A stretch of DNA of 52,666 nt from Natrialba hulunbeirensis JCM 10989. GTDB lineage: Archaea > Halobacteriota > Halobacteria > Halobacteriales > Natrialbaceae. The position numbers and the translations under genes were made by a program. The DNA lies in NCBI RefSeq assembly GCF_000337575.1, contig NZ_AOIM01000041.1, positions 200,441-253,106 of the forward strand, read 5' to 3'. Below are positions 34,957 through 46,655 of this stretch, one piece after another (positions within the stretch are counted from its first letter, which is position 1; each line of letters begins with the position of its first letter). The notes below the pieces were generated by a model. It was given only the letters and a program-made list of their open reading frames with translations, made no database searches and was not told the DNA's origin.

Positions 34957-35706
34957 ATGGACTGCCCGACCTGCGGGAAATCGCTCAGTACCGAACAGGG
35001 AATGCGCCAGCACCATACGAAGGTACACAGCGAGCCACTCCCGAATCGAACCTGCACGGGGTGTGAGACGGATTTTTACGATCCGAAAGCGCGCAGATCG
35101 TACTGCGACGACTGCAATCCAAACGCCGGCTCGAACAACGGCAACTGGCGCGACGCGAAAGAGACGACGACGTGCACCCACTGTGACGCGGACTTTTCGT
35201 ACTACCCCTCCTCGAAGAAGGGCGTGTTCTGCCCCGACTGCGTCGCGGACGCAGACGGATTACTCCCGGAGAACTACGCCGAAACCGTCGACCGAGTGAC
35301 GGTTGCATGTCGCGCCTGTGATGCGCCCCTCTCAGTTCGACCCGCCGCACGCGAGTCGCAAGAACGTGGATTCTTCTGTACACTCGAGTGCTATGGCACG
35401 TGGCTCTCGGACAACGTCGTCGGGCCGGCTCATCACCAGTGGGAGGGTGGAACGATCACGTATGGACAGAAGTGGTGGGCGGTTCGCCGGCGTGCACTCG
35501 AGCGGGACGACTACACGTGTCAACACTGTGGTGTCGACGCGGACGAACTTGGTCGGAATCCAGACGTGCATCATCTGGAGCGGGTTCGATCGTTCGACGA
35601 GCCTGCGGAGGCGCATCGACTGGAGAACGTGGTGTCGCTCTGTCGACAATGCCACAGACACGCAGAGGAGGGGACGATCTCCGCAGGTCCTCGAGACGAA
35701 AAGTAA
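34957..35706 (+). CDS. Multi-zinc-finger HNH endonuclease
   Basis: The protein is 249 aa. An N-terminal C2H2 finger (C3, C6, H19/H20, H24) is followed by paired cysteines at 33/36, 50/53, 73/76, 92/95, 118/121 and 141/145, suggesting several treble-clef or ribbon zinc sites. The C-terminal HNH domain has C188/C191, HH at 205-206, an Asn at 224, and C229/C232 with H233 and H235 (ENVVSLCRQCHRH). DNA cleavage is expected from the family. The gene ends 42 nt before a tandem array derived from tRNA-Gln, a context seen for mobile or homing nucleases; biological role unknown. Confidence 0.88.
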   Translation: MDCPTCGKSLSTEQGMRQHHTKVHSEPLPNRTCTGCETDFYDPKARRSYCDDCNPNAGSNNGNWRDAKETTTCTHCDADFSYYPSSKKGVFCPDCVADADGLLPENYAETVDRVTVACRACDAPLSVRPAARESQERGFFCTLECYGTWLSDNVVGPAHHQWEGGTITYGQKWWAVRRRALERDDYTCQHCGVDADELGRNPDVHHLERVRSFDEPAEAHRLENVVSLCRQCHRHAEEGTISAGPRDEK

Positions 35707-36251: not shown

Positions 36252-37490
36252 CTACACAAAACGTGATCCAATACCAAGGGCGTACTCGCCGTGGACTCGC
36301 TGTTCGTCGTGATACTCGACCGGTTCTTCGATCACGGCGATCCGTTCGCTATCGATGGCCGCAGCCGTTGCGATACCCGTGACGTCCTGTTTGTCCTGCT
36401 CTCCGTTTTTGAGGTCGAACCAGCGGAGCGCGTGGGTCTCTGAATCACGAACGCGGAAGTTCTGGGCGCACGGAGCGACGATCGCGCGGTCACGTGCAGC
36501 GAGTTCGGTGACGAATCCCCGAACGGACGCATCCCACAACGGCTCGCCATCGATATCGAAGGCGGCGATACGGTGTTCGTTCGGATGCCGAGACGACGTT
36601 TCTCTGCTGTCAACAGCGTACGTATTCCCGGTGACGAACGCCACGTATCGGTCGTTTGCGTAGGCATGATTCGGGTACGCATACAGCGTTTCGCCGTCGA
36701 CGTCGGTCTCGACCGCGAGATCAACCGTCCACCGTTCGGTACCGCCCTCCTCGAGCAGGTAGCCACGCTTGTCGCCGTGGCTTGCAACGGCTAGGTGCTC
36801 GCCGGTAAACGAAACGTCGCCGACACGGCGGTCGCCATCCGTTACAGGGTCCCACATCCATTCAGGGTCACCTGTCTCCGAATCGAGGACACTGACACCG
36901 CAATCGTGCGTTCCCGTACAGCGGTTGTAACCGACAGCCAGGCGATCCCGGTCACTGTCGAGTGAGAGTGCGATGGGTGAGGCATCGGTCTCGTACCGCC
37001 ACCGAATCGCGCCGTCCGGCTCGATCCCGTAGACGGCGCTCTGCCAGCGGCGTTTGTCGCCATCGCGCTCGTAACGACGCGCGGCCGCATACAGGGAGTC
37101 CCCGTCGTCATCGGCCTCGATCGCGAGGACGTACGGCAGGGAGAACAGTCGGTCGCTCGTGGGCGTCCCGACGTGTGCTGCGGCGTCGACAGACCAGCGT
37201 CGCTCTCCCGACTCGAGGGCGTACCCCGCGATGACTCCGTCCTCGCCGCGCCCCCCGACGATGAGCGTGTCGTCGGTGACTGCTAGCGAGACGGCGCTCT
37301 CCGGATGGTCGACCTCCCAGCGAGGATCGAGTGACTCGCTGTCGAAGGCGGTGACTGTCCCGCCCCACCGTCCAGCAATGACAACGTCGTCGGCCAGCTC
37401 GACGCTCGAGCGCGTCCACATCTGCCGGCTCCCTGCACTGTCGATCTTGCCGAGCGGGCGTCGGTCGAACCGGTGTGTGCGTTCTGCCAT
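36252..37490 (-). CDS. PQQ-like beta-propeller protein at end of cobalamin operon
   Basis: The protein is 412 aa. It has no signal peptide, so it is probably cytoplasmic, unlike the propeller lipoprotein at 9733. Propeller repeats of the YALESGERRWSVD, LDSETGDPEWMWD and FDIDGEPLWDAS type are visible. It has two Cys in the middle (RCTGTHDCG) and one later (APCAQNF). It lies 6 nt after the DUF3209 gene as the last member of the cobalamin unit. A role in assembly or substrate holding is inferred only from position. Confidence 0.82.
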   Translation of the reverse strand: MAERTHRFDRRPLGKIDSAGSRQMWTRSSVELADDVVIAGRWGGTVTAFDSESLDPRWEVDHPESAVSLAVTDDTLIVGGRGEDGVIAGYALESGERRWSVDAAAHVGTPTSDRLFSLPYVLAIEADDDGDSLYAAARRYERDGDKRRWQSAVYGIEPDGAIRWRYETDASPIALSLDSDRDRLAVGYNRCTGTHDCGVSVLDSETGDPEWMWDPVTDGDRRVGDVSFTGEHLAVASHGDKRGYLLEEGGTERWTVDLAVETDVDGETLYAYPNHAYANDRYVAFVTGNTYAVDSRETSSRHPNEHRIAAFDIDGEPLWDASVRGFVTELAARDRAIVAPCAQNFRVRDSETHALRWFDLKNGEQDKQDVTGIATAAAIDSERIAVIEEPVEYHDEQRVHGEYALGIGSRFV

Positions 37491-37496
37491 TCGCGC

Positions 37497-37868
37497 TTAA
37501 TCCTCGACGGGAAAGGTTTCGTGGAGCAGATCGTGTGCCTCTCCGAGACCGTCGGTAATGCTTTTACCCTGTACCCGCAGCCGATGAACGGCGCGCTCGG
37601 CATCGCGAACGGCCAGCAATCGACCCCGAGTGTAATCGTACTCCGGATCGTCGGCATCCATCGAGGTAACGGTCTCTTCGAGGTCGACGAGCGCGGCGTC
37701 GAGATGGCGTTCGATCTCTGCCAGGCTCTCGGCCTCCGAGAGCCCTTCGATAGGGCCTTCGAGGTGTCCTTCGAGTTCTTTCTCCGCGTGGTCGCGGGCG
37801 TGTTGATCCTCGACGCCGAGGACGTTCATCAGTCCGAGTCGAAGTGCTTCGATTTCGTAGCAGCTCAT
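37497..37868 (-). CDS. DUF3209 family protein linked to cbiX
   Basis: The protein is 123 aa from the ATG at 37868 (MSCYEIEALRLGLMNVLG), helical and acidic with N-terminal C3. HARDHAEKELEGHLEG is rich in His and Glu. The family is of unknown function and is regularly found next to cbiX in cobalamin clusters. A cobalt-handling or chelatase-partner role is inference. It lies 70 nt after the cbiX stop. Confidence 0.8.
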   Translation of the reverse strand: MSCYEIEALRLGLMNVLGVEDQHARDHAEKELEGHLEGPIEGLSEAESLAEIERHLDAALVDLEETVTSMDADDPEYDYTRGRLLAVRDAERAVHRLRVQGKSITDGLGEAHDLLHETFPVED

Positions 37869-37938: not shown

Positions 37939-39171
37939 CTAGAGGATCTGTTCGACGAGATTACTGACGATGCGATCACTCTCTAGGTGATCGGTGACAA
38001 TTCGGTCGGCGTTTTCGGCCGCGACATCGCCGTACCAGATTCCGTCGGGATAGACCGCAACCATCGGTCCGTCGCCACAGCGACCCAGACACGACGAACG
38101 GGTGATACGGACGTCGCAGCGCTCGGAGTTGCGAGCCTCCTGCCGGATGCGTTCGAGCACCGCGGTCGATCCCGCGTCGGCGCAGGTTCGATTCGTACAG
38201 ACCGTAACGTGCTTTTGCGGTGCGTCGTGGCTGTGTGGTTCGTCGTCGATATCCTCCCGAGCAGCGTGAGCCTCCTGGTGGGCCAGTGCACGAAGCATGG
38301 CTCGTGCCCCGCCGACATCCTCCTCGTAGCCCTCGAGATCGACCTTGTACTTGCACGTGTCACAGGACATCTCGACACTCCCCGACCGCGCCTCCTGCCA
38401 GCGATCCGCGAAGACGTCGAGGAGCCGCGAGTCCGTGCCGAGCGGGTCACCGGCCAGCGCGCTGACGTAGGGGTAGTCGTCGTCGAAGTCGGCCGTCCAG
38501 TCCCGGACCCGCTGGGTGAGCACGCCGTCGCCGAGCATGTAGGGAAGCACGACGACCGCGTCCGGCCGGTGCTTCGAGAGGCCGTGGAGGGTATCCTCGA
38601 GCGTCGGCTCCGTGACGCCGATGAACGTCGCCTCGACGCGGTTGAAGTCGCGACCCTCGTAGAGCAGTCGCGCGAGCTTTTGCACGTCGCCGTTGGCGTC
38701 TGGGTCACTCGAGCCCCGGCCACAGAGGACGACGGCGACCCCGTCGTCCTCACGGTCAACGCCGAGTTCGGCTTCCACTTCGGCGGCGCGGTCGTCCAGC
38801 AGGTCGATGATCGCCGGGTGGATACCCAGATGCGCGCCGTTTTCGATCTCGAGGTCGTAGGCCGCGCGGGCTTGCTCGATCGCCAGCGGTACGTCGTTCT
38901 TGACGTGGCTCGCGGCGAACAGCGAGCAGTGGACGACCGTCACTCGCGAGACGACCGATTCGAACGTCGCGAACGCCTCGTCGATCGCCGGCTCCGCCAG
39001 TTCGAGAAACGCCGCGTCGACCGGAATCTCGAGCCGGGACTCGAGGCCGGCCGCCAGCTCGCGCACCTGTTCGTTGGACTTCTCGCGGCGGGAGCCGTGG
39101 CCGACCAGCAGGACGGCCTCGTCGTCGAAGGCAGCGGTCGTTACGGACGTGGATTCGTCGGGTGTGTTCAT
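37939..39171 (-). CDS. cbiX: Sirohydrochlorin cobaltochelatase with 2Fe-2S ferredoxin tail
   Basis: The enzyme inserts Co2+ into sirohydrochlorin. It is 410 aa. The first CbiX domain has H25 in LLVGHGSRR and H89 in LFAASHVKNDVP, the usual metal ligands. The second domain (about 144-260, VVLCGRGSSDPDANGDV) has lost the matching His. A Cys pair C270/C273 (MSCDTCKYKV) precedes a His-rich linker. The last 90 residues form a thioredoxin-like [2Fe-2S] domain with C325, C330, C361 and C365. The cluster may regulate or supply electrons; purpose unproven. Confidence 0.93.
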   Translation of the reverse strand: MNTPDESTSVTTAAFDDEAVLLVGHGSRREKSNEQVRELAAGLESRLEIPVDAAFLELAEPAIDEAFATFESVVSRVTVVHCSLFAASHVKNDVPLAIEQARAAYDLEIENGAHLGIHPAIIDLLDDRAAEVEAELGVDREDDGVAVVLCGRGSSDPDANGDVQKLARLLYEGRDFNRVEATFIGVTEPTLEDTLHGLSKHRPDAVVVLPYMLGDGVLTQRVRDWTADFDDDYPYVSALAGDPLGTDSRLLDVFADRWQEARSGSVEMSCDTCKYKVDLEGYEEDVGGARAMLRALAHQEAHAAREDIDDEPHSHDAPQKHVTVCTNRTCADAGSTAVLERIRQEARNSERCDVRITRSSCLGRCGDGPMVAVYPDGIWYGDVAAENADRIVTDHLESDRIVSNLVEQIL

Positions 39172-39192: not shown

Positions 39193-39930
39193 TTACTCGT
39201 CGTACGCTTTTGCCTGCTCGAGGCTGCGCTCAAGCTTCCGGCGGCGGCTCGGCGCGAAGAGACCGGTCTGCTCGCAGTCTTCGTAGAGCCACGTACCGAA
39301 CTCGAGTGCGACGGCGTCGTCGACGCCGAACCAGTAGCCGCCCGAAGACGTCTCCGAAAGCTCGTCGTAGGGAGTCTCAATCGGACAGTCGTCGATCAGT
39401 TCCTGAACGCACTCGAGTAGTGCCCGATCGTCGTGGACGAACGAGATGCCGACGGTGCCGCTCGAGGACTTGAAGCAGATCGTGCCACAGCCCTCGAGCA
39501 GGCCCCGGAGCAGTTCCCGGTCGTACTCGCTGAATGCGCCAAAGCGGTAGTTGCCGCGACCGTCGACGGGCAGGCCGAGCGCGCCGCTGCGGCCGAGCAG
39601 CCCTGACTCGTTACCGTTGTCGCTGTCGATCGTCAGCGTGTACTCGTCTTCCGTGCGGGTGATCGACGTGTCGTGGGCGTAGTCGCGGGTCGTCGTGTCG
39701 TGCTCGAGGTCGCCACCGGCGACCGCCGCGAGCACCTGCGCGGATTCCTCGTCGTTGGCAACGACTTCGATGCCGGCGTCCGAGACATCGCCGCTGCCGG
39801 CGACGTGGCCCCAGAAGTACGCCGACGCGGGGTGGCCCGCGAGCGGGTCGGTCGGGAGTTCGATTTCGGCCGGTGAGTCGGTGGCGTCGTCAGCGTCGGC
39901 CACCTCGGTTGGGGCGCCGGCGTCGCTCAT
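39193..39930 (-). CDS. Catalytically dead LAGLIDADG-like protein in cobalamin operon
   Basis: The protein is 245 aa from the ATG at 39930. Two halves each open with a LAGLIDADG-like helix: YFWGHVAGSG (about 38-47) and LLRGLLEGCG (140-149). The helix end that normally bears the catalytic acid (D in D-A-D-G) has Ser46 and Cys148 instead. The second half continues like a homing-endonuclease core (ICFKSSSGTVGISFVHDDRALLE). Five Cys (148, 152, 174, 182, 219) lie in the second half. It overlaps the ferredoxin gene (ATGA). The domain assignment is by eye, and a non-nuclease role such as substrate or RNA binding is inference. Confidence 0.7.
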   Translation of the reverse strand: MSDAGAPTEVADADDATDSPAEIELPTDPLAGHPASAYFWGHVAGSGDVSDAGIEVVANDEESAQVLAAVAGGDLEHDTTTRDYAHDTSITRTEDEYTLTIDSDNGNESGLLGRSGALGLPVDGRGNYRFGAFSEYDRELLRGLLEGCGTICFKSSSGTVGISFVHDDRALLECVQELIDDCPIETPYDELSETSSGGYWFGVDDAVALEFGTWLYEDCEQTGLFAPSRRRKLERSLEQAKAYDE

Positions 39931-40193
39931 TCGCCCACCTCCTCGACGACGATGGCATCGGTCGGACAGGCCGCCGCGGCCTGTTTGGCCTCGCCGATGC
40001 GGTCGTCGTCGAACGTCGCGACGACCCGGTGTTCGTTGTCGGTGACCTCGCCCTCGCAGTCGTAGACCGGATCCGCGCCGGGGTCGACCGTCGCGAGGCC
40101 GTCCTCGCCCTCGACGAAGCGCGGATCGCGGGTCAGACAGGCGAAGATGCCGTCGCAGGCGTCTTTCTCGATGGTGACTTCGTATCGTGGCAT
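39927..40193 (-). CDS. Small ferredoxin of cobalamin operon
   Basis: The protein is 88 aa. YEVTIEKDACDGIFACLTRDPRFVE and AAAACPTDAIVVEE mark an archaeal-type 3Fe-4S/4Fe-4S ferredoxin. Visible Cys are 13, 19, 45 and 76, so the classical CxxCxxC is reduced. It probably donates electrons for a reductive step in corrin synthesis, such as ring contraction or cobalt reduction; partner inferred from position. Confidence 0.85.
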   Translation of the reverse strand: MPRYEVTIEKDACDGIFACLTRDPRFVEGEDGLATVDPGADPVYDCEGEVTDNEHRVVATFDDDRIGEAKQAAAACPTDAIVVEEVGE

Positions 40194-40214: not shown

Positions 40215-41252
40215 TCAGTAGTCGTACTTCGTCTCGTATCCGCGGGGCGTGACCATCCGGTCGTCCCAGACGTAGGTGTCCTCCGTGCCGACGACGATCG
40301 TCGTCGTCATGTCGATGATTTCGCTCTCGCCCAGTTCCTCGAGTTCGCCGAGCTCGGTGATCATCACCTGCTCGTCCTCGCGGCCGGCGCCGTGGACGAT
40401 GCCGACCGGCGTGTCGGGCTCGCGGTGCGTGAGGAGAATTTCGCAGCACTTCTCGAAATTATCGCGGCGCTTGCGGCTCCACGGGTTGTAGATCGTGATC
40501 GTGAAGTTCTCGCTGGCCACGGAGTGGAGTCGCGACTCGATTTCGGGCATCGGGACAAGGTGATCCGACAGCGAGACCGAGACGGTGTCGTTCACCAGCG
40601 GCGCACCCAGGCGGGAGGCGCAGGACTGGGCCGCCGGAACGCCCGGCACCACTTCGAAGTCGACCATCGACGCCGTCGCGCCCTTCGACTCGAGTATCTC
40701 CAGCGCCAGACCAGCGAGCGCGTAGACGTTGGGGTCGCCGCTGCCGACGATGGCGACGTCGTTGCCCGCGAGCGTGCGGTCGATCGATTCCTCGGTTCGG
40801 GAGACTTCGCCGCACATCGGCGTGTCGTAGATGTCGTCGGCCTGCTCGGTGATCTCGTCGGGGATGAGTTCGATGTAGGTCGTGTAGCCGACGATGTGAT
40901 CGGCCTCGAGCAGGGCGTCTTTCGCGCGCTGGGTCATCCCCTCCGGATGGCCGGGACCGAGTCCGACGGCGATCAGCTGGCCGGGCTCGGCATCGAAGTC
41001 CTCGATCGTCGCACCGACCTCCTGCTCGTTCGAGTCATCGTCCAAACTCGAGGAGGCTCCGCACTTGGACTCACTCGAGTCGTCCGAACTCGAAGAGGCG
41101 CCACACTTCGAACCCGAGGAGGCCTCGGATTCGGATGTGTCGCTCGAGGCCCCGCAGTTGGAGGCGCTCGAACTCTCGGTCTCGTCGGTGGTCGATGCGC
41201 CGCACTTGGAAGTCGATTCGCCGTCAGCGTCGGAGTTGGTGTCCGTGCTCAT
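40215..41252 (-). CDS. cbiH1: Cobalt-precorrin-3B C17-methyltransferase with Cys-repeat extension
   Basis: The protein is 345 aa. The tetrapyrrole methylase domain (from about residue 90) has AVGLGPGHPEGMTQRAKDALLEADH, GSGDPNVYALAGL and VVPGVPAAQSCASRLGAPL. It contracts the ring and methylates C17. The first 90 residues are a Ser/Asp/Glu-rich extension with four near-identical CGAS units (Cys 17, 33, 50, 64), absent from the catalytic fold. The next gene is a second member of the same family. Confidence 0.9.
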   Translation of the reverse strand: MSTDTNSDADGESTSKCGASTTDETESSSASNCGASSDTSESEASSGSKCGASSSSDDSSESKCGASSSLDDDSNEQEVGATIEDFDAEPGQLIAVGLGPGHPEGMTQRAKDALLEADHIVGYTTYIELIPDEITEQADDIYDTPMCGEVSRTEESIDRTLAGNDVAIVGSGDPNVYALAGLALEILESKGATASMVDFEVVPGVPAAQSCASRLGAPLVNDTVSVSLSDHLVPMPEIESRLHSVASENFTITIYNPWSRKRRDNFEKCCEILLTHREPDTPVGIVHGAGREDEQVMITELGELEELGESEIIDMTTTIVVGTEDTYVWDDRMVTPRGYETKYDY

Positions 41253-41261
41253 GGTCGGTAG

Positions 41262-42140
41262 TCAGAAGTCGTCGACGTCACGCCCGCCGCGCGGGGTAAC
41301 GAGGTACGTTCGATCGTCGTTGCGCCAGGTCTCAGTCTCGTGGTTCCCGATGATCAGCGAGGTGCCCATCCCCGAGACCTTGTCGTCGTGGTCGGCGGCC
41401 TCACCCAGCGTCGTGATGTGCTGGCTCTCGCCGTTTCGGCCGGCGTCCGCGCGGCCGGCGTCGTTGACGATCGCCACGAGGGCGTCGTCGGTCCGTTCCT
41501 CGCGGACGATCTCGACGGCCTGCTCGTAGTTGCGCCAGCAGTTGTAGAGGACGATCACGAAGTCCGAAATCGCGGCCGCCCGCAGCTTCTCCTCGATCTC
41601 GTCCCAGCCGCGCCACTTGTCCGACAGCGAGACGGTACAGAAGTCGTTACACAGCGGCGCGCCGACGTTGGCCGCGCCGCCAAGCGCCGCCGTCATCCCG
41701 GGGACGACCTCGATCGGGACGTCCGTCGCCGACTCTTCCTCGGCCATCTTGAAGATGAGGTCGGACTTGCCGTAGACGGAGGGATCGCCGCCCGAGACGT
41801 GGGCCACGTCTTTCCCCTCGCGGACGTAGTCGAAGGCCGCGCGGGCGAGTTCGATCTGGCGCCCCATCGACGAGCGGACGATCTCCTGTTCGAAGCCGTC
41901 CTCCCGGGTCGCGATGCCGTCCTCGTCGGTCCGCTCCTCCGACGGAATGGTCCCGTCGTCCCGCAGGAACTCCTGGTAGAGACTCGAGGCGATGACCACG
42001 TCCACGGACTCGATGACCTCCTTAGCCCGTTTGGTCATGTGGTCGGGCAGGCCGGGGCCGATACCGACCACGTAGAGGGTGCCGTGGTCGGCTGGGGTGC
42101 CTGCGGTCTCGGAACTCGCGTCTGCGTCGTCGACGCTCAT
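41262..42140 (-). CDS. cbiH2: Second CbiH/CobJ-type tetrapyrrole methyltransferase
   Basis: The protein is 292 aa. Methylase motifs are YVVGIGPGLPDHMTKRAKEVI, HVSGGDPSVYGKSDL, VVPGMTAALGGAANVGAPL and FVIVLYNCWR. It has the family fold and the C-terminal YLVTPRGGRDV shared with cbiH1. Haloarchaea commonly carry two such paralogues side by side; which does the C17 methylation, and what the other does, is not settled from sequence. It overlaps cbiG by ATGA. Confidence 0.88.
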   Translation of the reverse strand: MSVDDADASSETAGTPADHGTLYVVGIGPGLPDHMTKRAKEVIESVDVVIASSLYQEFLRDDGTIPSEERTDEDGIATREDGFEQEIVRSSMGRQIELARAAFDYVREGKDVAHVSGGDPSVYGKSDLIFKMAEEESATDVPIEVVPGMTAALGGAANVGAPLCNDFCTVSLSDKWRGWDEIEEKLRAAAISDFVIVLYNCWRNYEQAVEIVREERTDDALVAIVNDAGRADAGRNGESQHITTLGEAADHDDKVSGMGTSLIIGNHETETWRNDDRTYLVTPRGGRDVDDF

Positions 42141-43129
42141 TTGCCGATCGCCACCGTGACCTCGTCCTCGTAGCTGATCTTCTCGAGTACCAGTTCCTGC
42201 TCGCGGCCGCCGGCGATCGCCGAGGCCTCGGAGACGCCGGGCCAGCCGATCAGCTCCTTCGATTTGGAGGGCGTCGGCCCCTCGTGCTCGAGCAGCGTCT
42301 CCTTGTCGAAGGCGACGACGCCCAGATCGAGTTCTTGCGCGGCCTCGAGCAACCCTTCCTCGTCCTCTTTGCGGGTGGCGGTCCCGACGAATTCGACATC
42401 CGCGAGGTCGTGGGGGGTCTGGTCAAGCGCCTCCTCCCACGCGGCAATGAACGACTCCTTGCTCGCGCCGGAGACGCTGCCGGTACCGATGACGACGCCG
42501 TCGTCTTTGTTGCGCTTGAGGACGGTAACGTCGTCGCCGACCAGCACCGCTTTCGGCCCGACGAGTCGCTCGACGGGTCCGAGATTGTCGTCGAGCACGG
42601 CCAGGTTCGTCTTGACAGTCGAGTCGCCGTTGACGACATGGGTATCCATCGCCTTCGCGCGGGACTCGACGCCCTGTTTGCCCGCGGCCTCCGAGGCGGT
42701 GGTCATCGCCGGGACGGCACCCATCGTCGCCAGATCCTGCGCGACCTGATTCGCGCCGTGGTGGCCGCCCGTGATCGGGATCGCCCACGTCAACTCTTCG
42801 TCGACGACGCAGATCGCGGGATCGTCCCACTTGTCGTCGAGCAGGTGGGCCGTCTTGCGCATCGCGATCCCCGAGGCCATCAGGCCGACGAAACAGTCGT
42901 ACTCGCCCCAGTGCTCCTCGAAGACGTCGCCGTGGTACTCGATGATGTCGATCGTCTCGTACCGATCCGCGAGTTCGGCTTTGATCTCCTCGGCGGTCTC
43001 CATCTTGCGCTCGAAGGAGACGATTGCAATCTCCTCGGCGACCTCGCCGTCCGAATCCGGCGTGGAACAGTGACCGCCGTCCGATCCGTCGTCCGTCGCG
43101 TCGGTGTTGTCTGGGTTGTCCGTACTCAT
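42137..43129 (-). CDS. cbiG: Cobalt-precorrin-5A hydrolase
   Basis: The enzyme opens the delta-lactone and releases the two-carbon fragment in the anaerobic route. It is 330 aa. Signatures are VGLMASGIAMRKTAHLL, ITGGHHGANQVAQDLA and the C-terminal LIGWPGVSEASAIAGGREQEL. An acidic N-terminal extension carries H20-C21 (DGGHCST), a possible metal-binding feature shared in style with neighbours. Confidence 0.94.
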   Translation of the reverse strand: MSTDNPDNTDATDDGSDGGHCSTPDSDGEVAEEIAIVSFERKMETAEEIKAELADRYETIDIIEYHGDVFEEHWGEYDCFVGLMASGIAMRKTAHLLDDKWDDPAICVVDEELTWAIPITGGHHGANQVAQDLATMGAVPAMTTASEAAGKQGVESRAKAMDTHVVNGDSTVKTNLAVLDDNLGPVERLVGPKAVLVGDDVTVLKRNKDDGVVIGTGSVSGASKESFIAAWEEALDQTPHDLADVEFVGTATRKEDEEGLLEAAQELDLGVVAFDKETLLEHEGPTPSKSKELIGWPGVSEASAIAGGREQELVLEKISYEDEVTVAIGK

Positions 43130-43132
43130 GGG

Positions 43133-44023
43133 TCAGTCACTCTCGGCTTCGTCTGCGTCGTTCGGTCCGCGATTCGCCCAGTCGCCGTAGAGATAGGAGC
43201 GCTCGTAGCCCGCGCCCGTCACGGCGTCGCCGATGACGACCAGCGCCGAGGCGCGGTAGCCCGCCTCCTCGACCTTGTCCGCGATATCGCCGATCGAGCC
43301 GACAATCACGTCCTCGTCCGGCCAGGAGGCGTGATAGATCACCGCGACCGGCGTCTCGGGATCGTGGCCGTCCGCGAGCAGCCGATCCATCGTGTCGCGG
43401 ACGGCGTGGGTCCCGAGGTAGATACAGGTCGTCACGTCGCCCATTGCCACGAACTCGGAGATGTGGTCCTCCTCCGGCTCCAGGGTCTTGCCCTGCGGCC
43501 GGGTGAACGCGACGTGATTCGAGACCTCGTTGAGCGTCAGCTGAGTCCGCAGCGTCGCGCTCGCGGCGAACGCCGAGGTGACGCCCGGCACGAAGTACGT
43601 CGGCACGCCCTCATGCTCTAAGGCGTCCATCTGCTCCAGAGCGGCCCCGTAGATGGCGGGGTCACCGCTGTGGAGCCGAACGACGTTCCGGCCCTCCTCG
43701 TAGGCGTCTCGCATCAGCGGGATCAGCTCCTCGAGATCCTTCCCGACGGAGTTGACGAGTTCGGCGTGGTCGCAGTACTCCGCGAGCAGTTCGCTGTTGA
43801 CCAGCGACCCCGCGTGGACCACGAGGTCGGCCGACTCGAGTAGCTCCTTCCCCGCGACGGTCAGCAAGCGCGGGTTGCCGGGACCAGCGCCGACGAAGGG
43901 AATCCCCTCCTGCTCGTCGCCGGCGCTGTGTTCGAAAATCCGATCGTCGAGTTCCTCGTGGCGGCGCTCGCCTTGGGAGTCGATCGCGTCCTGAGGGTCG
44001 TCGCCGGTAGTATCGTCCGTCAT
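43133..44023 (-). CDS. cbiF: Cobalt-precorrin-4 C11-methyltransferase
   Basis: The protein is 296 aa. Methylase motifs: PFVGAGPGNPRLLTVAGKELLESADLVVHAGSLV, RLHSGDPAIYGAALEQM, FVPGVTSAFAASATL and TRPQGKTLEPEEDHISEF. It places the C11 methyl in cobalamin synthesis. It follows cbiL by 2 nt. An acidic N-terminus of about 40 residues precedes the catalytic domain. Confidence 0.94.
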   Translation of the reverse strand: MTDDTTGDDPQDAIDSQGERRHEELDDRIFEHSAGDEQEGIPFVGAGPGNPRLLTVAGKELLESADLVVHAGSLVNSELLAEYCDHAELVNSVGKDLEELIPLMRDAYEEGRNVVRLHSGDPAIYGAALEQMDALEHEGVPTYFVPGVTSAFAASATLRTQLTLNEVSNHVAFTRPQGKTLEPEEDHISEFVAMGDVTTCIYLGTHAVRDTMDRLLADGHDPETPVAVIYHASWPDEDVIVGSIGDIADKVEEAGYRASALVVIGDAVTGAGYERSYLYGDWANRGPNDADEAESD

Positions 44024-44025
44024 AC

Positions 44026-44853
44026 TCAGTGTCCTCCGCAGTCGCCGTGCGCACAGCCCTCGGCGATCTCTTCGCTGACTACCGCCCCGCCGTCCGCGAT
44101 GGGTTCACCGCTCGTCGACTCGCCGTCCGCGTCGCCATCGCTTGCCTCGTCCACCGACTCGTCGCTGTCTTCCAGAAACGCCGCCGTCGCCTGCTCAATC
44201 TCGAGATCCGCCTTCTCGGCGTAGGCGAGCGTGTAGTAGTCGCGCTCGTCGATCTCGGTTGGGTCGTCGGTGATGATCGTCTCGCCTTGCTCCATGAACA
44301 GGCGGCGGCCGTAGGTCACCTCGTAGCCGGCCGCGACGAGCCCCTCGTGGGTCGCCGGCGCGTCGGTGACCTTGAACAGGATCATCCGGTCCGCCCCCGT
44401 CGGGCTCGCCCCGTTGGCGGCCTCGCGCAGGGAGAGCCCCGCACCGGCCTCGATCTCGACCCCCATCGCGGTCGCGAAGGCCGTCACGGCGCTGACGCCG
44501 GGGATGATCTCCAGATCCACGTCGGGGTGGAACGCGTCGATCGTCCGCCGCAGGTGGCCGAACGTCGAGTAGACGTTCGGATCGCCCAGCGTGACGAAGG
44601 CGACGTCGCCCTCGCGGGCCTTGGGGGCGACCTCCGCGGCGGCCTCCTTCCACGCCGCTCGCAGCTTCTCCTCGTCTTTCGTCATCGGGAAGTCCAGATC
44701 CCCGATTTTCGACTCGTCGACGTGTTCGAGTGCGACTGAGCGGGAGAGCCGCCCCGGCGAGTAGACCACGTCGGCGGTCTCGAGAATCCGCTTGCCGCGG
44801 ACGGTGACGAGGTCGGCTTCGCCGGGACCGAGGCCGACGCCGTAGAGGGTCAT
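44026..44853 (-). CDS. cbiL: Cobalt-precorrin-2 C20-methyltransferase
   Basis: The protein is 275 aa. The start is LYGVGLGPGEADLVTVRGKRILETADVV; VTLGDPNVYSTFGHLRRTID and EIIPGVSAVTAFATAMG confirm CbiL. After the catalytic part an acidic linker leads to a C-terminal CAHGDCGGH (residues 267-275), a Cys/His cluster that could bind cobalt or another metal. It overlaps cbiT by ATGA. Confidence 0.94.
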   Translation of the reverse strand: MTLYGVGLGPGEADLVTVRGKRILETADVVYSPGRLSRSVALEHVDESKIGDLDFPMTKDEEKLRAAWKEAAAEVAPKAREGDVAFVTLGDPNVYSTFGHLRRTIDAFHPDVDLEIIPGVSAVTAFATAMGVEIEAGAGLSLREAANGASPTGADRMILFKVTDAPATHEGLVAAGYEVTYGRRLFMEQGETIITDDPTEIDERDYYTLAYAEKADLEIEQATAAFLEDSDESVDEASDGDADGESTSGEPIADGGAVVSEEIAEGCAHGDCGGH

Positions 44854-45467
44854 CGCTGCTCCCCTCCACGGCCGTCTGCAGCGACGGTTTTCCCGTCGTC
44901 GTCCTCACCGTCCGAATCTGGCGTCGCACTCCCGACCAGCATGTAGACCGGGTTATCGGAGTCGAAGCTCGTCGCGCCAGCGAGGTCATAGCCGTGGCTC
45001 ACTTGGAACTGAACGACCTCCTTCAGCAGGTTCCGCTCGCGGAACGCCTCGGTCGCCTGCCCGGCGACCTCGAGCCGCGAGACGTTCATCACCACGCGAT
45101 CGATTTCGGTCTCGACGGCGTAATCGAGCACGGCCTCGAAGTTCCGGCTCCCGCCCACGAATAGCGCGTCGGCGTCGTCGGGCAGCCCCTCCGGAGCTTC
45201 CGCGTTGCGCAACTCGACGTCGGCCACGATCGACTCCTCGTTGGCCACGAGGTTCTTCTCGGTCGTCTCGAGTCGGTCGGCTGTTCGCTCGAGGGCGGTC
45301 ACCCGCCCGGCCCGCTGTGCAGCCTCGATCGTGACGGCCCCCGTACAGGAGCCGACCTCCGCGAAGTGGTCGTCCGACTCGAGTGCAAGCTTCGAGCGGA
45401 CGACGGCGCGGACCTCTGATTTGGTCGGTCCGGCCTTCGCATCGTGTGGCAGCGCGATGGGTGGCAT
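44850..45467 (-). CDS. cbiT: Cobalt-precorrin-6B C15-methyltransferase (decarboxylating)
   Basis: The protein is 205 aa, from the ATG at 45467 (MPPIALPHDAKAGPTKSEV); a GTG at 45470 precedes it. The SAM-binding motif is FAEVGSCTGAVTIEAA (35-50), and a Rossmann fold continues through DALFVGGSRN. It methylates C15 and decarboxylates the acetate side chain at C12, with CbiE doing C5. First gene of the long unit. TTTTAG at 45493-45498 is a suitable TATA box. Confidence 0.92.
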   Translation of the reverse strand: MPPIALPHDAKAGPTKSEVRAVVRSKLALESDDHFAEVGSCTGAVTIEAAQRAGRVTALERTADRLETTEKNLVANEESIVADVELRNAEAPEGLPDDADALFVGGSRNFEAVLDYAVETEIDRVVMNVSRLEVAGQATEAFRERNLLKEVVQFQVSHGYDLAGATSFDSDNPVYMLVGSATPDSDGEDDDGKTVAADGRGGEQR

Positions 45468-45490
45468 CACCCGTGGATGACTGTCGCATC

Positions 45491-45500
45491 CACTAAAACA
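45491..45500 (-). promoter_or_regulatory. Promoter of cbiT-led cobalamin unit
   Basis: On the minus strand TGTTTTAGTG lies about 24-33 nt before the cbiT start, the spacing of a leaderless transcript that would carry the whole unit down to the beta-propeller gene. Confidence 0.5.
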
Positions 45501-45562
45501 ATTTTGGTTGAGTTAGAGCAAATTATATTGCTCATTCTGGGTTGGACCAGTGAAAGTGTCGT

Positions 45563-45781
45563 TTATTCAGTGCCGTCCTGGTCGACGAGCGCGGCGAACC
45601 AGATTCGAGTGCCAAACTGACTCGGAAGCCAGACCGCCGATCTGCGTTCGTCGTGTCCGATCGGCGAGTGGGAGACCGAAAAGGGGACACCGTCGGGAAA
45701 CTCGGCCCCATCGATGGTCAGACGAACGAAACGATCGGTGACCTCGAGAACGTCTGTGGTGAGTGGTCTACAAGTGAACAA
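45563..45781 (-). CDS. Hypothetical 72-residue protein
   Basis: The protein is 72 aa between cbiT and cbiE. Codons follow the genome bias (C/G in third position), so it is likely coding. The protein is beta-rich and has VWLPSQFGTRIWFAALV near the end. No family assigned. The rest of this interval, 45471-45562 and 45782-45848, holds the cbiT promoter and no other gene. Confidence 0.45.
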   Translation of the reverse strand: MFTCRPLTTDVLEVTDRFVRLTIDGAEFPDGVPFSVSHSPIGHDERRSAVWLPSQFGTRIWFAALVDQDGTE

Positions 45782-45848
45782 GGCGGTTCACAACGGCTGT
45801 GCGTTCAGCGTCGACCGGTTTTCAACGGGAAAGCAGAACCTGTCGCGA

Positions 45849-46655
45849 CTACACAGGCTGTCGGACCACGAGCACAACCAGATCCGAGAACGGCGTGTCC
45901 TCCCGGCCACCGCCGCCCGCGTGTTCCGACAGTTCGGCTAGCGTGAACCGGTGTATCCGCTCGTCCTCGTGGGTCAGCTTCTCGCAGACCAGCGCTTCGA
46001 GGTTGGGGTCGGCACCACGCTCGAGCAGCAACTCGGCGAGATCCCCTGGCATCTGATCGAACGGCCGCGGGAGCGCGAGCAAGTGGCGGTCGTCCTCGAC
46101 AACCGCCGCCGCGAGTCGGTCCACGTCGGCCCCAAGGTCGCCGCTCTTGTGGAGTGTGACGAACTCGGTATCCTCCATCGGAGTCCGAGCGCGGCTCGCG
46201 GCCACCTGTAACGAGGAGATGCCGGGGACGACGCGTACCGGCCGCGGCTCGACGTCTCGAGCGTCCGCTTCTCGTCTCACGGCGTCCTGAACCTTCCCAA
46301 CGAACTGGTAGCCCGAGTGGTTGGGGTCGCCCATCGCGACGGCAGTGCCCGACTCGCCGGCCGCGATACGCTCGGCGAATTCCGCGAGTGCCTCGGCCTC
46401 GTCCCTGTAGCCGCAGGTCAGCAGATCGGCGTCGGTCAGGTCCTCGACGAACTCTACGACGGTCGTGAAGCCGACGACGACGTCGGCCTCCTCGATCGCC
46501 CGCCGACCGCGCGGCGTGAGGAACTCCTGATTACCCGGACCGACGCCGACGGCGTAGACGGGATCGTCCGCCTCCTCGTCGATGGCCGACTCGGCCGCCG
46601 CAGCCGCAAACGTCGCCGGATCTGGCCCTGCATCGAGGTCGTACTCGCCGCTCAT
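45849..46655 (-). CDS. cbiE: Cobalt-precorrin-7 C5-methyltransferase
   Basis: The protein is 268 aa. Methylase motifs: AVGVGPGNQEFLTPRGRRAIEEADVVVGF, AMGDPNHSGYQFVGKV, VVPGISSLQVAASRA, FVTLHKSG. The order after a short acidic N-terminus is that of CbiE. The start overlaps cbiC as ATGA. The separate location of cbiT, in the other unit, means the two halves of the CobL reaction are not cotranscribed. Confidence 0.93.
   Translation of the reverse strand: MSGEYDLDAGPDPATFAAAAAESAIDEEADDPVYAVGVGPGNQEFLTPRGRRAIEEADVVVGFTTVVEFVEDLTDADLLTCGYRDEAEALAEFAERIAAGESGTAVAMGDPNHSGYQFVGKVQDAVRREADARDVEPRPVRVVPGISSLQVAASRARTPMEDTEFVTLHKSGDLGADVDRLAAAVVEDDRHLLALPRPFDQMPGDLAELLLERGADPNLEALVCEKLTHEDERIHRFTLAELSEHAGGGGREDTPFSDLVVLVVRQPV

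Follow-up and report, generated by a model that had tools for sequence, protein, structure and literature searches.

We analyzed a 52,666-nucleotide stretch of the Natrialba hulunbeirensis JCM 10989 genome (hereafter the window), which carries a cobalamin (B12) operon on its minus strand. The gene order of the operon is CbiE, CbiT, CbiL, CbiF, CbiG, CbiH1, CbiH2, ferredoxin, LAG, CbiX, DUF3209 and PQQ-repeat protein (Table 1). LAG denotes the LAGLIDADG-fold protein family of the haloarchaeal B12 operon, and its member in the window is P0001. The LAG open reading frame runs from an ATG at 39930-39928 to a stop codon that ends at 39193. An earlier note, made from the letters of the window alone, gave no strand for this gene but placed it inside the cobalamin operon, translationally coupled to a ferredoxin gene and next to cbiX. 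All three observations hold: Cbi genes lie upstream and cbiX downstream, the ferredoxin stop codon overlaps the LAG start codon (ATGA, 39927-39930), and cbiX starts 21 bp past the LAG stop codon. The dN/dS of LAG is ~0.2 relative to its nearest relative, L031 (0.024/0.116), and 0.13-0.26 relative to L002, L003 and L029. Based on these values for near relatives and on orthologues in 145 genomes, the gene is beyond chance. It is under purifying selection.

The other genes at this end of the operon have features of their own. The ferredoxin has the Cys pattern CDGIFAC ... ACP, with Ile or Val at the usual fourth position. Since only three Cys are invariant, its cluster site is perhaps open, and the fourth-position residue fits a cluster of the [3Fe-4S] or open-site kind. 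Adjoining CbiH2, the protein is possibly a free-standing equivalent of the Fe-S portion of Bacillus megaterium CbiH60. A ferredoxin-LAGLIDADG fusion in G200 (L054) was ruled out by an in-frame TGA between the two. The DUF3209 protein, with invariant Cys3, His27, His55, His112 and His116, is a possible second metal-handling partner; in Thermus and Leptospira too (L113, L115), its gene adjoins one for a long [2Fe-2S] CbiX. After it lies the PQQ-repeat beta-propeller gene (36252-37490, minus strand), which is found in most, not all, of the operons checked and corresponds by order to HVO_B0052. Outside the B12 operon, an open reading frame at 34957-35706 (plus strand) has weak HNH and zinc-ribbon matches.

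Table 1 Features of the cobalamin operon and of the LAG protein, in window positions
Feature	Position	Strand	Basis or remark
CbiH2, CbiH1, CbiG, CbiF, CbiL, CbiT, CbiE (upstream operon genes)	40215..46655	-	NCBIfam matches
Single-cluster ferredoxin (Fer4_15), three invariant Cys (C13, C19, C75)	39927..40193	-	ATGA overlap with LAG
LAG gene (P0001; position of HVO_B0055)	39193..39930	-	245-aa open reading frame, AF2, PDB matches, Pfam
LAGLIDADG helix 1 (residues 34-46), ends in Ser46, former catalytic acid	39793..39831	-	Model and alignments
His86, 46/46	39673..39675	-	Alignment of relatives
LAGLIDADG helix 2 (residues 131-148), ends in Cys148, former catalytic acid	39487..39540	-	Model and alignments
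Cys152, 47/47, first strand after helix 2	39475..39477	-	Alignment of relatives
His166, 45/47, aligned with I-DmoI N129 beside active-site K130	39433..39435	-	Alignments
CbiX cobaltochelatase, 410 aa, C-terminal thioredoxin-like [2Fe-2S] domain, not His-rich tail	37939..39171	-	
DUF3209 protein (start at MSCYEIEA), all-helical predicted fold, pLDDT 96	37497..37868	-	

The order CbiH2-ferredoxin-LAG-CbiX-DUF3209 recurs in nearly all loci with LAG, the upstream Cbi order is kept in nearly all of those whose span reaches these genes, and the position of LAG is fixed across the sampled haloarchaeal families. Among 292 haloarchaeal genomes, LAG was identified in 145 of the 150 that encode CbiG and in none of the 142 that do not (Fisher p 1.6e-78, relatedness ignored). 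These counts were made after removal of three chance hits (G060, G172 and G215), which were low-scoring N-terminal acidic stretches. The family thus accompanies CbiG in nearly every case and never occurs without it, the pattern taken here to mark a protein dedicated to the cobalt-early B12 operon. When the search was widened to 393 genomes of the phylum, all LAG matches fell within the same order. The distribution of DUF3209 is almost equal to that of LAG, with 147 genomes over the cut-off. A haloarchaea-specific family dedicated to the cobalt-early B12 operon is well supported by these genome comparisons. A literature search, with most subscription papers and all supplements out of reach, found no paper linking LAGLIDADG proteins to haloarchaeal cobalamin synthesis and none on DUF3209 or PF11483.

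Fold and former catalytic site

An AlphaFold2 (AF2) model of LAG based on a 57-sequence alignment has a mean pLDDT of 89 and a pTM of 0.86. In this model the first half consists of helix 34-46, strands 47-50 and 53-58, helix 61-71, and strands 74-84 and 87-102. The second half consists of helix 131-148, strands 149-154 and 159-166, helix 169-180, strand 199-203 and further helices, and the LAGLIDADG helices meet at the interface. Beyond the core there is only a low-confidence N-terminus; the last core helix (227-244) ends the chain, and neither the model nor a Pfam scan revealed a helix-turn-helix (HTH). The best 50 PDB matches retrieved with Foldseek are all LAGLIDADG proteins, with I-Tsp061I on top (E 7e-7). 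Based on VIA, LAG aligns equally well with WhiA (Z 15.0, rmsd 3.3, 184 aligned) and with I-Tsp061I (Z 15.0, rmsd 3.9, 188 aligned). By sequence, neither a single nor a profile search found relatives in the PDB, and a PHROGs search returned insignificant matches only. The Pfam family LAGLIDADG_3 is matched by 29 of the 57 members at E up to 1 (best E 2.7e-5), the protein of the window on its own reaching E 0.091. The second half had been described as resembling a homing-endonuclease core. Based on the model and on the Foldseek and VIA matches this is correct for the second half but not for it alone, and an alpha-beta-beta-alpha-beta-beta LAGLIDADG core in both halves is well supported as a prediction. 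With such a core in each half and a one-to-one tie to the B12 operon, the proposed recruitment of a nuclease fold to corrin synthesis is borne out.

The two motifs read as previously quoted, GHVAGSG at residues 41-47 and GLLEGCG at residues 143-149, and they bring Ser46 and Cys148 to the ends of the two predicted LAGLIDADG helices. Profile alignment to I-DmoI (a query identical to PDB entry 1b24) places Ser46 on the catalytic D21 and Cys148 on E117. This local hhalign alignment is weak (E 0.025, from a single comparison), but it is consistent with the motif spacing and with where the helices end. FVHDDRALL of LAG is aligned on IWNKNKALL of I-DmoI, which puts His166 on N129, next to K130. The active-site lysine positions of I-DmoI, K43 and K130, are not preserved in LAG.

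Residue conservation was counted over 47 LAG relatives, 46 of which have letters at position 46. That position is occupied by Asp in 25 relatives, by Ser in 10, by Gly or Ala in eight and by Asn in three, with at least six changes on the LAG gene tree. At position 148, 46 of the 47 carry Cys and the other carries Thr. Near-fixed residues are Arg142 and Glu146 (47/47 each), Asp60 (44/47), and Cys152, His86 and His166 (Table 1). Since position 46 drifts and position 148 is almost always Cys, the alignment indicates that the first acid position is relaxed and that the second is re-fixed as Cys in a Cys-x3-Cys motif. The earlier note held that both catalytic acids are replaced and asked if Cys148 and the missing acids are invariant in homologues. 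Replacement of both applies to the protein of the window but not family-wide, given the frequent Asp at position 46, and near-invariance applies to Cys148 but not to position 46. Of the five Cys that it counted in the second half, C148 and C152 are conserved, and C174, C182 and C219 are not. None of the 47 relatives has the two acids that an active enzyme needs; each has at most one. Prediction and comparison thus show that the catalytic-acid pair is lost, and LAG is probably nuclease-dead.

Operons without LAG and a candidate cobalt step

Five genomes encode CbiG without LAG (G001, G007, G129, G268 and G052). In the first four (L105-L108) the operon comprises only CbiT-L-F-G-H1-H2-CbiX, with neither ferredoxin, LAG nor DUF3209, and CbiX is without the [2Fe-2S] domain. 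A tree built from four operon proteins places these genomes together on one side of a branch (support 78); the tree carries long-branch warnings. The fifth, G052, is a one-contig genome that has kept the ferredoxin, the [2Fe-2S]-CbiX and DUF3209. Precisely in the slot that LAG has elsewhere, between the ferredoxin and the normal CbiX, it encodes an additional CbiX whose tail is His-rich (L109:12206-13141, plus strand). A His-rich CbiX tail, with 12-16 His per 40-aa window, is present in 5/5 of the LAG-less genomes with CbiG; none of the 95 CbiX open reading frames in loci with LAG (near-duplicates included) has more than 6. In B. megaterium, a tail of this kind on CbiX-L has been proposed to store metal and to deliver it (PMC7689651).

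Two further genomes depart from the common arrangement. The operon of G014 is split: LAG has remained together with CbiX and DUF3209, and the ferredoxin is found with CbiG. G021 encodes the most divergent LAG homologue (33% identity), which is located outside the cbi operon and flanked on both sides by cation-efflux (CDF) genes (L077:3945-6954, minus strand); the ferredoxin of this genome is with CbiH2.

The best explanation, which we hold with somewhat less than even confidence, is that LAG is a domesticated, nuclease-dead LAGLIDADG protein that works with CbiX where cobalt is supplied or inserted. The evidence that points to the cobalt step is the complementarity of His-tailed CbiX and LAG, the exchange in the G052 slot, the linkage of LAG to CbiX in G014 and the cation-efflux neighbours in G021. 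We infer the step from about two independent evolutionary events, and the effect of LAG is isolated by G052 alone, because the four module-less operons also lack the ferredoxin, DUF3209 and the [2Fe-2S] domain of CbiX. Several findings argue against this role: the four module-less operons group on the same side of a branch, G052 is one genome only, Thermus and Leptospira clusters have the same long CbiX and DUF3209 with no LAG gene annotated, and H166 is replaced in 2 of the 47 relatives.

According to this explanation, LAG would work with the adjacent CbiX cobaltochelatase and would do the job of the His-rich CbiX tail found in LAG-less operons. The former nuclease metal site, rebuilt around Cys148, Cys152, His166 and perhaps His86 together with nearby acids, would bind Co(II) and either pass it to CbiX or keep it available under air. 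Cys148, Cys152, His166 and His86 as the Co(II) ligand set is a speculative hypothesis drawn from conservation. Of the functions suggested in the earlier note, that of a metal or substrate holder, by way of C148, C152 and two nearly invariant His, is the one we favor. That a LAGLIDADG fold has turned into a cobalt-handling partner of a tetrapyrrole chelatase, its Mg(II) site having become a cobalt site made of Cys and His, is put forward tentatively and is open to considerable doubt. Within the same step, LAG could equally activate the [2Fe-2S]-CbiX and carry no cobalt. This fits G052 just as well, since the slot there holds a complete chelatase domain and not a tail alone.

The distribution also offers a lead concerning oxygen. 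COX1 is missing in four of the 292 genomes (G001, G007, G093 and G129), and the three of these with CbiG (G001, G007 and G129) all lack LAG (Fisher p 2e-5). The link is a lead only, because G001 and G007 share a genus, G268 is without LAG yet has COX1, and independent events are few. Thermus and Leptospira, which are aerobes, likewise have the long [2Fe-2S] CbiX beside DUF3209. This suggests, again as a lead, that the CbiX/DUF3209 module may belong to cobalt-early synthesis in air and that LAG and the ferredoxin may be haloarchaeal additions.

Alternative explanations

The pathway itself has gaps that LAG might fill, as an enzyme or subunit for the missing CbiD (EC 2.1.1.195) or CbiJ (EC 1.3.1.106) step. 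Both proteins are absent in 59/59 haloarchaeal genomes in which controls were detected, and LAG follows the pathway as closely as CbiG does. Moreover, the main text of Pfeiffer and Dyall-Smith (2021, PMC8305020) lists HVO_B0055 in the cobalamin cluster as "function unassigned" and proposes it together with three unassigned neighbours as candidates for these gaps. However, CbiD and CbiJ are also absent genome-wide in the four genomes with module-less operons and in G052, where the B12 pathway is predicted from genes; LAG therefore does not generally stand in for them. All five LAG-less operons do encode the methyltransferase paralogue CbiH1. LAG matches neither the CbiD (PF01888) nor the CbiJ (PF02571) profile, and we know of no SAM or NAD(P)H site in the LAGLIDADG fold, which also counts against such a role. 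We regard it as unlikely; for the CbiD gap, the evidence points to CbiH1 and not to LAG. A redox or scaffold partnership with the ferredoxin in CbiH ring contraction, comparable to that of WhiA with the Fe-S protein WhiB, seems a little less improbable, if still not probable. LAG adjoins the ferredoxin in nearly all loci, the perhaps open cluster site of the ferredoxin would suit such a partnership, and the WhiA structure was solved together with WhiB. A special tie between the two, suggested by their coupling, stands as far as the ATGA overlap in the window goes but is weakened by their separation elsewhere: LAG is lost and the ferredoxin kept in G052, and the two lie apart in G014 and G021.

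The remaining alternatives keep LAG in nucleic-acid biology. A regulator or sensor of the operon that binds nucleic acid, like WhiA or a maturase, would accord with the structural comparison, in which WhiA, a degenerate LAGLIDADG transcription factor, ties for the best match. The core and its low-confidence N-terminus leave LAG with no HTH, though, and a regulator is not expected to be swapped for a chelatase, as in G052. The pI of LAG is 4.07 (I-DmoI, 9.99), similar to those of the neighbouring metabolic enzymes, and its predicted strands are net negative (average -5.6); charge is a weak argument against DNA binding here, because halophilic proteomes are acidic anyway. Together with the lost lysine positions, these features speak against the nucleic-acid sensor that had been suggested, and we find this explanation very unlikely. 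Least credible of all, to the point of being nearly dismissed, is a homing endonuclease that is still active or was so until recently, or the decaying relic of one. It has only the fold in its favor, and purifying selection, the fixed operon position and the limit of one catalytic acid per member stand against it. Active LAGLIDADG homing endonucleases have acids at both helix ends and are found in introns or inteins or are free-standing and mobile; LAG has no such acid pair and no intein or intron context, and the patterns used found no LAG relatives in viral contigs.

Comparison with known LAGLIDADG and cobalt-supply proteins

To our knowledge, the LAGLIDADG proteins characterised so far (nucleases, maturases and WhiA) all act on nucleic acid. 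A member bound one-to-one to a metabolic operon, with a fixed Cys/His set replacing the acids, would widen the known uses of the fold and, if the proposed role is true, would place it outside nucleic-acid biology. By gene order, HVO_B0055 of Haloferax volcanii occupies the place of LAG (cbiX1 is B0054 and cbiH2 is B0057), and relatives are annotated as 'cobalamin biosynthesis protein'. It would gain a specific candidate step, cobalt supply or insertion; the main text of PMC8305020 gives it no fold, residue pattern or mechanism.

The monomeric archaeal enzymes I-Tsp061I (2dch) and I-DmoI share with LAG the two-fold pseudo-symmetric core, and their motif spacing and helix ends align with it. In contrast, LAG keeps neither D21/E117 nor K43/K130 of I-DmoI, is very acidic and lies outside any intron or intein. 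Another structural match is WhiA/DUF199 (Streptomyces 8dy7, Thermotoga 3hyi), like LAG a domesticated host gene with a degenerate LAGLIDADG fold, which has lost the metal-binding and catalytic residues (PMC3781837). WhiA is a transcription factor of Gram-positive bacteria with a C-terminal HTH, whereas LAG has none, belongs to a biosynthetic operon and shows a conserved set of Cys and His. Thus a degenerate, domesticated LAGLIDADG protein is already known, and a family lacking the HTH and dedicated to cofactor synthesis is new. At the proposed step itself, the His-rich C-terminal tail of B. megaterium CbiX-L has been suggested to store and deliver cobalt (PMC7689651). Such a tail occurs where LAG is absent and is part of the chelatase, whereas LAG is a separate folded protein. 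CobW supplies cobalt to a B12 chelatase (PMC7689651), as proposed here for LAG, but it is a G3E GTPase of the late-insertion pathway with a fold unrelated to that of LAG.
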